The notes beneath the pieces were generated by a model, which was not told the origin of the DNA, did no database searches, and worked only from the letters and a program-made list of their open reading frames with translations. A stretch of DNA of 64,000 nt from contig JACRMT010000004.1 in assembly GCA_016214855.1 (NCBI GenBank), forward strand, positions 1-64,000, in the 5' to 3' direction. Numbering within the stretch: position 1 is the stretch's first letter; each line of letters begins with the position of its first letter. The DNA comes from Nitrospirota bacterium. GTDB lineage: Bacteria; Nitrospirota; Thermodesulfovibrionia; Thermodesulfovibrionales; UBA6898. The translations under genes and the position numbers were made by a program. Below, piece by piece: positions 21,204 to 25,090 of this stretch.

Positions 21204-22697
21204 CTATCGGTGATATTTCCCCGAAGCAGGTACTGCGCGTTGATAGGCCCAGGCTTCAATACTCTTGATCTGTTCTGCCATCGTGACCGAAAGAGGTACG
21301 GTTCTGCTCAACGCAACCAGAAAATCCTGTTCAACTACAGGACGCTTCTCGGCAAGGGCTTCGAAAACCGCGGATTTGACCACCTGCTCGATCTCTGCCC
21401 CTGAAAGATGCTTTGGTGATGATACCATCAGCGAGAGATCAATCCCGGAAATATCGATATTCTGCTTCTTCATATGAATGCGGTATATCTCTTCACGCGC
21501 CTTCTCATCCGGAAGTCCGACATAAAATATCTCATCGAAGCGTCCCTTGCGCAGGACTTCTGCAGGCAGCATTTCAATGGCGTTAGCGGTAGCTGCGACA
21601 AAAACAGGCGCTTTCTTTTCCTGCATCCAGGTCAGGAACGACCCTAATACGCGGGACGCTGAGCCTCCTTCAGCCTTGAATCCCTGTGATGAAATGCCGG
21701 CCTCGATCTCGTCTATCCAGAGGACGCAGGGCGCTATTGCCTCCGCAGTTCTGAATGCCTTGCGCAGGCTGGACTCGGGCGACCCGAATGATCCCCCGTA
21801 CAAAATTGCCATATCCAGACGGATAAGGGGGAGACGCCAGTGCGCAGCGATAACCTTGACGAAGAGTGACTTGCCGCAGCCCGATATGCCCATGACGAGC
21901 ACCCCTTTCGGCATCATGGCGCCGGAAGAGAGGTTATCCAGGCCAAACACCTTTTCGCGGCGTTCCAGCCAAAGCTTGAGGTTCTCCATCCCCCCTAACT
22001 GGTCCTTGTCCGCATCATTGACGATGAACTCCATGATGCCGCTTTTTCTGATGATCTGCTGCTTGATCTCAAAGAGCATCTGAACAATATCGTTTTGGCT
22101 GTTGGTATGAGCGTAATCGTATGTGCGGATGCTGCGCTCGATGTCAGTGAGATAAAGCCCCTGGGAGGCTACTGCCAATCGTTCCTCCAATTCAGGAAAT
22201 TCGGCACAGGCCTGGGCCAGCAGAGGAATACGTTCTCTCAAGACTGCCAGATGCTCCCTGATCTCCCCAATGCGGGGAAGTCCCTGATACAGAATGACGA
22301 GGTCTTCCTGTAATTGTTCAGGAACAGACTCTTCTTCACCCAGGATGATCAGGATGTTTGATCGTCCGCGAGCAACAAATTCCTTCAGTTTTCTGATGAT
22401 AAACGGATTATTTTTCCAGAAGAAAGAAAGGTCCTTGAAAAGAAAGATGGCCGGCCCCTGCTGCGACAGAGCGAAGTCAATCGCAGCAAGAGGCTCGACG
22501 GTCTCTTTATACGGCTCTCCCTTGCGGATGATCCCTTCGGTGCAGGTCCATACAAAAGGACTCCCAACGCCCTCAACATCTGCAGCCGCCTCTAGGATAA
22601 CTGCCTCTGTGCTCCGCTCGTTGTCGGTAACTACGTAGATCAGGTTATTTTCTGATCTGATTATTCTCAGCAGGTCGCGCGCATTCAGGTTTTCCAT
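21204..22697 (-). CDS. AAA+ ATPase of the Ycf46-like type
   Basis: 497 residues. The N-terminal ~240 residues are the degenerate module usual in this group ('[20 protein letters not shown]', '[10 protein letters not shown]'). The C-terminal AAA domain has Walker A '[19 protein letters not shown]', Walker B '[12 protein letters not shown]', sensor 1 '[20 protein letters not shown]' and Arg finger '[15 protein letters not shown]'. Cyanobacterial and plastid Ycf46 homologues are linked to inorganic-carbon responses; the role here is unknown. It is transcribed in the same direction as priA, 134 nt downstream of it. Confidence 0.88.
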
Positions 22698-22831: not shown

Positions 22832-24730
22832 TCAGTACGGGTCTGTGTCGATCCTGATCTCGACGTCCTTTGCATTCTTGAAGTGCTTTACCACTGCGCT
22901 CGCTGCAGCATGCAGTATCTTTCTTTCACTATGCTTGAGCAGGAAGGAATACTCGATTCCTTTTTTTGTCTTCTTTTCCGTTGGGCCGAGAATTTCGACA
23001 GGTCCTGCCGATTCTCCGATTATCTTCATGATCTTCTCTGCAAGGTCCGCTTTGCCATATGCAAGAATATTGAGCAGCTTTGCGTAGGGAGGAAAGCTCA
23101 ATGCTGCCCGCATTGCAAGTTCCTCTGCGGCGAAGGCATCATAATTGCCATCTCGCAGATGCCGGAACAAAGGATCCTGCGGAAACCGCGTCTGGACGAC
23201 GACTTCGCCTTTTGGAGCAACAAGATCACGGATCGAGATGATCTCCTGATAGGTCTTTTCACGTGCCCGAAAATCCGGGATATTAAGGCTGCTGTCAGCA
23301 TTAAGAAGTGCAGCCAGGGAGAAACTGCTGCCCGGAGTCAGGCGTTTCGTCAGCATTTTTGTGCCGACGATGATCCGCGGCTCATCAGTGGCAATGCTTT
23401 TCAGGAGTCCCTGTATCTCTGTTTTCCTGCTTGCGCTGTCGCTGTCAAAACGCAGTGGTTCTATATTGAAAAGGTCCCTGATATCTTCCTCGATCCTCTG
23501 TGTCCCCGCCCCAAGCTGTTCAATAGTAGGACTGCTGCATTTGGAGCATACATCAGGCACACTAAGAGTTTTGGCGCAGTAGTGACACTCAAGCAGGCCC
23601 CTGTCTTTATGGAGCACCAGGGGTATGCCGCAGTCAGGACATGATTCTGTATTGCCGCAGTCAGCGCAATGAAGAAAGGTTGCATGTCCTCTCCTGTTGA
23701 TAATGAAGAGTATCCTCCCATTCTTCTGCAAAACTCTTCTGGCCTTGTCGATCACCGCGGTTGAGAGATACGAGCGGCCTTTTTTCCCGAATCGCTGATC
23801 AGCTATCCTGATCAGCGGTTTCAGGGTATTTTCCTGCAGCCGTATAAGACGGTATTTGCCGGATTGCGCGTTGAACCACGAATCCATTGACGGTGCAGGT
23901 GACATCAGGATTACCGGGATCTTTTTCAGAAACCCCCTCATGACCGCGGTATCCCGGACATTAAGCCTGATCCCCTCCTCAAGCTTGTATGAAGACGAAT
24001 GCTCGTCGATCACCATGATAAGGGAAAGCGTATGCATAGGAGCAAAGAGGGCTAATCTGGTGCCTATGATAATGTCGTGTTTTCCGGAGATAATGCCGTC
24101 GATGCTCTCTGAACGTCTGCCCGCAGCCATGTCGCTGTGGAGCATGCAGACGCGCTCTCCGTGTTCGTTCCTGATCGCCCGGTAAAAGAGCTCTGCCTGT
24201 GAGATCTCCGGGAAGAGGACCATGACATTGCGGTGCGACCTGAGTATTGAGGCTGCAACAGAGTATTCATGGACAACTGAAGCTGTATGCAGGAGCGAGG
24301 TCTGATACCGCTTCTGACTGACAGCAGATTCAAGCTCGGGAAGGTCATTAAGGCGGATGTCTGTCAATGCCGGGATCCCGGCGGAAAAGGTATCTTCGGA
24401 CCCCCTGCGTTTCGTTCTTGTGAATATCTCTTTCGGCAGGGACTGCTTCAAAACAAGACCCTCTGGCGATAGATAGTATTCGGACGTCCATTTGATCAGC
24501 TTCAGGTCAGCGGCGCTGAAAACCGGAGCATGGCCGTGGACCTGGGCGATATCTTTAAGGCGGCCGGCAGGAGGCGATGCGTTCCTTGTATAGATGATCC
24601 CCATTGCGATGCTCTTTCTGAGCGGCGCTGAAACGATCATGCCGGGTTCAGCCAGATGTCTCAGACTGTCCGGGCAACGGTAGGTGAGGGGCCCCAGGTT
24701 AATAGGGAATATGATATCGAAGCATGTCAT
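22832..24730 (-). CDS. priA: PriA-like primosomal protein with lost helicase motifs
   Basis: 632 residues from ATG 24730 (TTG 24736 possible). Normally PriA (~730 aa) is a 3'-5' helicase that reloads the replisome. Kept: the N-terminal 3'-DNA-binding domain ('FDIIFPINLGPLTYRCP'), eight zinc cysteines (CADC, CPDC, CHYC, CSKC at ~355-400) and the C-terminal domain ending 'VEIRIDTDPY'. Lost: the Walker A site (GVTGSGKTEVY in E. coli) aligns to 'TASVVHEYSV'; the DEEH box reads 'DEHS'; motif V 'KG' reads 'KR'; motif VI QVAGRAGR reads 'ISIRDLVAP'. It should not hydrolyse ATP. Reading frame is intact, so it is a protein with changed function, not a simple pseudogene. Confidence 0.87.
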   Translation of the reverse strand: MTCFDIIFPINLGPLTYRCPDSLRHLAEPGMIVSAPLRKSIAMGIIYTRNASPPAGRLKDIAQVHGHAPVFSAADLKLIKWTSEYYLSPEGLVLKQSLPKEIFTRTKRRGSEDTFSAGIPALTDIRLNDLPELESAVSQKRYQTSLLHTASVVHEYSVAASILRSHRNVMVLFPEISQAELFYRAIRNEHGERVCMLHSDMAAGRRSESIDGIISGKHDIIIGTRLALFAPMHTLSLIMVIDEHSSSYKLEEGIRLNVRDTAVMRGFLKKIPVILMSPAPSMDSWFNAQSGKYRLIRLQENTLKPLIRIADQRFGKKGRSYLSTAVIDKARRVLQKNGRILFIINRRGHATFLHCADCGNTESCPDCGIPLVLHKDRGLLECHYCAKTLSVPDVCSKCSSPTIEQLGAGTQRIEEDIRDLFNIEPLRFDSDSASRKTEIQGLLKSIATDEPRIIVGTKMLTKRLTPGSSFSLAALLNADSSLNIPDFRAREKTYQEIISIRDLVAPKGEVVVQTRFPQDPLFRHLRDGNYDAFAAEELAMRAALSFPPYAKLLNILAYGKADLAEKIMKIIGESAGPVEILGPTEKKTKKGIEYSFLLKHSERKILHAAASAVVKHFKNAKDVEIRIDTDPY

Positions 24731-24772: not shown

Positions 24773-25090
24773 TTACGCCTTAATGAACGAGCAGCAGTAG
24801 TCGCTGATGGTCTTCACGTTCATTGAGAACCTGGCGTTTGCCGGAACCTCGAAAGATTCTCCCCCTTTGACCGGCTGCCAGGAGTTCTGACCGGGCAGGA
24901 GCAGATCGAGCTCTCCTGAAAAGATCTCCATGATCTCCCTGTCGCCGGTATTGAACTCATACTCTCCGGGCAGCATGACACCCAGAGTCTTCTTCGAGCC
25001 GTCCTTGAATATGATTGTCCTGCTTGTTACCTTGCCGTTAAAATAAACGTTTGCTTTTTTGACGACCGTTACATCCCTGAATTCAGACAT
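24773..25090 (-). CDS. ppnP: Pyrimidine/purine nucleoside phosphorylase
   Basis: 105 residues. Small cupin of the PpnP/YaiE (DUF1255) family, which phosphorolyses a range of nucleosides. Visible: '[20 protein letters not shown]', '[17 protein letters not shown]', '[16 protein letters not shown]', '[17 protein letters not shown]' and the terminal 'DYCCSF'. Length and motif order fit the family. It sits upstream of priA on the same strand with a ~40-nt gap, and is insulated from further upstream by two hairpin terminators. Confidence 0.92.

Follow-up and report, generated by a model that had tools for sequence, protein, structure and literature searches.

PriA helicase motifs are commonly regarded as near-universal and useful. 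The priA gene in the window, i.e., the whole 64,000-nucleotide stretch of Nitrospirota DNA analyzed here, raises the question of what a PriA protein is, and what it may do, once these motifs are gone.

Identity of the window PriA

The priA reading frame was intact on the minus strand from TTG 24736 or ATG 24730 down to the stop at 22832, and encoded 634 aa from the TTG or 632 aa from the ATG (22832..24730). The in-frame ATG at 24730 is the likely start; it agrees with the starts of relatives (MKCYDILFP and MTCFDIIFP in L034 and L035) and fits the start coordinate given in an earlier note on this DNA.

Three Pfam domains (PF17764, PF18319, and PF18074) each matched the protein above cut-off and in the domain order of PriA. 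The 3′-DNA-binding domain (PF17764, PriA_3primeBD; 3.4e-16) was located at 24434..24700, the cysteine-rich region at 23537..23668 (Pfam match, Zn_ribbon_PriA at 1e-8, and alignment), and the C-terminal domain (PF18074, PriA_C; 7.5e-6) at 22838..23047, all on the minus strand. All eight zinc cysteines were present in the window protein, and eight of eight were kept in 57/57 and in 8/8 of the sequences compared, the 57 being members of the same order. The Pfam matches and the alignment therefore agree with the earlier note that the DNA-binding N-terminus, the eight zinc cysteines, and the C-terminal domain are kept. Against the NCBIfam model TIGR00595 (priA) the protein scored 344 bits, for a cut-off of 230. 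With E. coli PriA it shared domain order, the eight zinc cysteines, and approximately 30% identity over 626 aligned positions.

Within the window genome (3.3 Mb, rated 100% complete) one PriA was found; the remaining PriA matches were weak and fell on general helicases. The second, intact priA that the earlier note had proposed to look for was thus not found in this genome. Single-copy status and the clustering of the protein with PriA of related bacteria in the tree identify the gene as a PriA orthologue.

Loss of helicase motifs

An alignment of the window protein, E. coli PriA, and 127 relatives served to compare the positions of five superfamily 2 (SF2) helicase motifs (all on the minus strand). 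Motif I (Walker A) was replaced at 24254..24286, where TASVVHEYSVA stands for GVTGSGKTEVY. At motif II (Walker B; 23999..24010), DEEH paired gap-free with IDEH, so that neither the Mg-binding Asp nor the catalytic Glu is conserved and the third residue is retained; DEHS, as first read for this motif, was one residue off in register. Motif III was SPAP for SATP (23891..23902), motif V was GTKMLTKRLTPG for the GTQMLAKGHHFP of E. coli (23330..23365), and motif VI, which carries the arginine finger, was SIRDLVAP for QVAGRAGR (23213..23236). Motif Ia (PEI) and motif IV (NRRG) were retained, as was the core of the aromatic-rich loop (R338, D339, A341, and R344). The alignment thus bears out an intact PriA homologue with Walker A and QVAGRAGR replaced; the broader statement that every ATPase motif was lost holds for motifs I, II, III, V, and VI and fails for Ia and IV.

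The motif I Lys, the motif II Asp, and those residues of motifs III, V, and VI that were invariant in 61/61 intact relatives were not retained by the 57 members of the order. Since the protein lacks SF2 motifs I, II, III, V, and VI, it is termed here a PriA orthologue and not a PriA helicase, and the automatic label "PriA helicase" is probably wrong in these genomes. The window PriA is full-length, under selection, and without its Walker A and Walker B residues, as expected of a pseudohelicase like D. radiodurans PriA; judged by its sequence, it is predicted to have neither ATPase nor helicase activity.

Distribution of the loss within Nitrospirota

The sample for the order (Thermodesulfovibrionales) comprised 57 PriA sequences from 13 families. 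The P-loop lysine was lost in all 57, with Glu in its place in 47. The intact P-loop DNA pattern, defined as G[VIAT]T-G-[ST]-G-K-T-E-[VIM]-Y, occurred in 0/176 genomes of the order versus 45/54 genomes from the other orders of its class. Profile scores followed the same division: PriA of the order scored 156–356 bits with the match beginning at model position 14 or later, while complete PriA of other orders scored approximately 500–641 bits with the match beginning at position 1 or 2, a few sister-order genomes having PriA fragments only. A loss pattern common to relatives across the order is not a chance event. The within-phylum alignment that the earlier note had called for accordingly revealed a loss that is order-wide and not specific to one strain.

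PriA of two further Nitrospirota families, f29 and f32, was also without a P-loop. These sequences had lost one residue by deletion, mostly carried Arg in place of the Lys, and read EGE for DEE. Among the genomes sampled, the intact P-loop pattern was found in none from f29 (approximately 124 genomes) or f32 (approximately 31 genomes), and in 20 of the 42 remaining genomes of their class. Families f36, f44, and f45 of that class had 0/15 genomes with the pattern, reflecting either dead PriA or a pattern that misses PriA in these families.

A maximum likelihood tree of PriA, built with the motif columns excluded and with no Deinococcus sequence, placed the order in one clade (support 100) and f29/f32 in another (100). 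The f29/f32 clade adjoined the intact family f22 (98), and the order grouped with intact orders of the class to which it belongs (95 and 99), on a stem branch of 0.64 changes per site. Two changes were required on this tree, and a second independent loss within Nitrospirota, in f29/f32, is probable.

A single ancestral loss in Nitrospirota, followed by lateral transfer of the dead gene to f29/f32, would give the same distribution with one loss. An approximately unbiased (AU) test with the order and f29/f32 as one clade gave p = 0.143, so the joint clade was not rejected and this history is formally allowed, yet it is disfavoured. It conflicts with the best tree, in which each lineage pairs with intact relatives even without the motif columns. 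Intact orders and classes also intervene between the two lineages, and the replacements differ, with K to E and xxEH in the order as opposed to K to R, a one-residue deletion, and EGE in f29/f32. Overall, one loss with transfer is quite unlikely.

Family f14, in the same class as the window order, was represented by two sequences, L082 (genome G061) and L085 (genome G064). Motif VI was damaged in both, and motif I was degenerate in L085 (IRPGIRKREIY). Family f14 is possibly an intermediate stage, with a third loss in progress.

Proposed mechanism and partners

The best explanation, at a probability of about 0.83, is that the window PriA is an ATP-independent, fork-binding pseudohelicase scaffold that recruits DnaB, probably together with DciA. 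Without normal ATP binding or hydrolysis, the protein would not unwind the lagging strand. Abandoned forks would be recognized through the 3′-binding domain and the other DNA-binding domains, and the two RecA-like lobes would be retained as a rigid frame. The zinc region and the C-terminal domain would hold single-stranded lagging DNA and partner proteins, and DnaB would be brought to the fork together with DciA. This scheme would require that the lagging arm carry no duplex, or that such duplex be removed by another helicase or exposed through SSB remodelling.

We infer fork binding and DnaB/DciA recruitment by the window PriA, and both proposed partners were found: DnaB was present in the window genome, and DciA occurred on both sides of the PriA loss, including all sampled genomes of the order. 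PriC above cut-off was found neither in the order genomes nor in the intact relatives sampled. A search among RecG, RecQ, and UvrD/PcrA for a helicase tracking the loss of the PriA motor found no compensating gene. RecG was mostly present on both sides of the loss (with a paralogue-level match only in f3, part of f4, and the intact f15), RecQ was sparse on both sides, and UvrD/PcrA occurred on both sides.

As a separate observation, no RecG scored above cut-off in f3, part of f4, or f15, though the genomes were near complete. In f3 and part of f4, therefore, both the PriA motor and RecG are apparently missing.

PriA could instead have moved from restart to another role (e.g., structural recombination or SSB binding), with another system restarting forks. 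The motor is dispensable in these bacteria, and the 3′-binding domain carries conserved residues specific to the order (F16 to L, and D at window residue 7), both of which would fit a new role. Every PriA-specific domain is kept, however, PriC is absent from these genomes, and the three helicases named above do not track the loss, which makes a change of role decidedly improbable.

A remodelled site that still binds and uses ATP would draw on two conserved features, namely the third motif II residue (Glu322 of E. coli), retained in 57/57 order members, and a common HAPSxx[HY]E pattern in the former P-loop. Against this, the P-loop glycines and lysine, the Mg-binding Asp, and the arginine finger are all missing, and the former P-loop is only moderately conserved between families (Glu at the former lysine position in 74% by family). 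ATP use through such a site is highly improbable.

Selection and structure model

Ratios of dN/dS were calculated by the Nei-Gojobori method for three same-genus pairs with 77–78% identity to the window protein. The gene-wide ratio was 0.14–0.15, with 0.14–0.15 in motor lobe 1 and 0.07–0.10 in lobe 2. Linker residues 106–150 were looser (0.36–0.50), as were 16 residues around motif I, a stretch too short for a firm value. The priA gene is under strong purifying selection, dead motor lobes included, and the low dN/dS of these lobes indicates that they are kept for shape or surfaces and not for catalysis.

A decaying pseudogene in which stop codons are yet to come, as the badly eroded ATPase motifs and the fast evolution of the order's PriA along its stem branch might suggest, is refuted by clade-wide purifying selection (dN/dS of approximately 0.14, the motor lobes not relaxed), a frame open in all complete order members examined, eight cysteines invariant across 13 families, and the lack of a second PriA as cover.

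An AlphaFold model of the window PriA, based on an alignment of 4 sequences, was of moderate quality, with a mean pLDDT of 61.5 and residues 1–123 below 50. The nine top PDB matches of this model were PriA structures, including crystal and cryo-EM structures (8fak, 6dcr, and 4nl4).

Relation to known PriA proteins

Wild-type E. coli PriA is, unlike the window PriA, an active 3′-5′ helicase with the partners PriB, DnaT, and DnaC. Its K230R variant has lost ATPase and helicase activity, and primosome assembly remains (PMC4504706). The E. coli helicase is needed if the lagging arm is duplex; with a single-stranded arm, SSB-DNA remodelling occurs instead (PMC13377028).

In D. radiodurans, PriA shows neither ATPase nor helicase activity but still binds both forks and DnaB (PMC4504706). 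The window PriA resembles it in that motor function is gone (proven in D. radiodurans, predicted here) while the DNA-binding regions, like the remainder of the protein, are kept. The two differ in extent: PriA of Deinococcus-Thermus has a degenerate P-loop with K to R, whereas the erasure in the window order takes in the entire P-loop as well as motifs II, III, V, and VI. Deinococcus-Thermus is also a different phylum, and the order's PriA clusters with intact Nitrospirota PriA, in a tree without Deinococcus sequences. The suggestion in the earlier note that a helicase-free scaffold arose more than once gains support from the Deinococcus-Thermus case (PMC4504706) and from the differently eroded f29/f32 PriA beside an intact family, tempered by the AU result (p = 0.143) and by a scaffold role that is itself deduced.

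A further reading joins these cases. The motor would have been lost repeatedly by convergence in DciA-using bacteria (two completed losses and one ongoing in Nitrospirota, plus Deinococcus-Thermus), and the HAPSxx[HY]E stretch of the order would be a new surface contacted by a partner, for instance DciA or DnaB. This combination is tentative and, taken as a whole, unlikely.

Actinobacterial PriA is said to have lost helicase motifs, and on general knowledge counts as a pseudohelicase similar in this respect to the window PriA. The window protein scored 407 bits on general PriA models versus at best 165 bits on NCBIfam PRK14873, which we take to be the model of actinobacterial PriA, annotated as without helicase motifs. 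The much higher general PriA score makes an actinobacterial origin unlikely. The actinobacterial precedent put forward in the earlier note was not found in the literature searched, and stands on general knowledge. A literature search yielded no report of a pseudohelicase PriA in Nitrospirota.

With the published Deinococcus precedent, the Nitrospirota case is a further, clade-wide, and recurrent example of a pseudohelicase PriA, and is a useful comparative case more than a novel type of system. It adds, for another phylum, a loss that spans a clade, probably a second one of independent origin, and an apparent intermediate stage, and its erasure is more complete than the K-to-R change of Deinococcus. 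Motor motifs were missing from the sole PriA found in one order (13 families or more) and in a second large Nitrospirota lineage, which suggests that PriA can often act as a passive docking platform. The purpose of the PriA motor is thereby opened to comparison, with f14 as the apparent intermediate and the intact sister orders as matched controls.

Gene neighborhood

A 497-aa AAA ATPase with a Cdc48/FtsH-like AAA module was encoded at 21204-22697 on the minus strand, between priA and coaE. As a candidate PriA partner it was rejected: no match was found within approximately 1.5 kb of priA in the relatives examined, congeners included, and the gene therefore looks like a local insertion. On the other side of priA, ppnP (24773..25090, minus strand) is a conserved neighbor in the window genus and lies outside the proposed mechanism.
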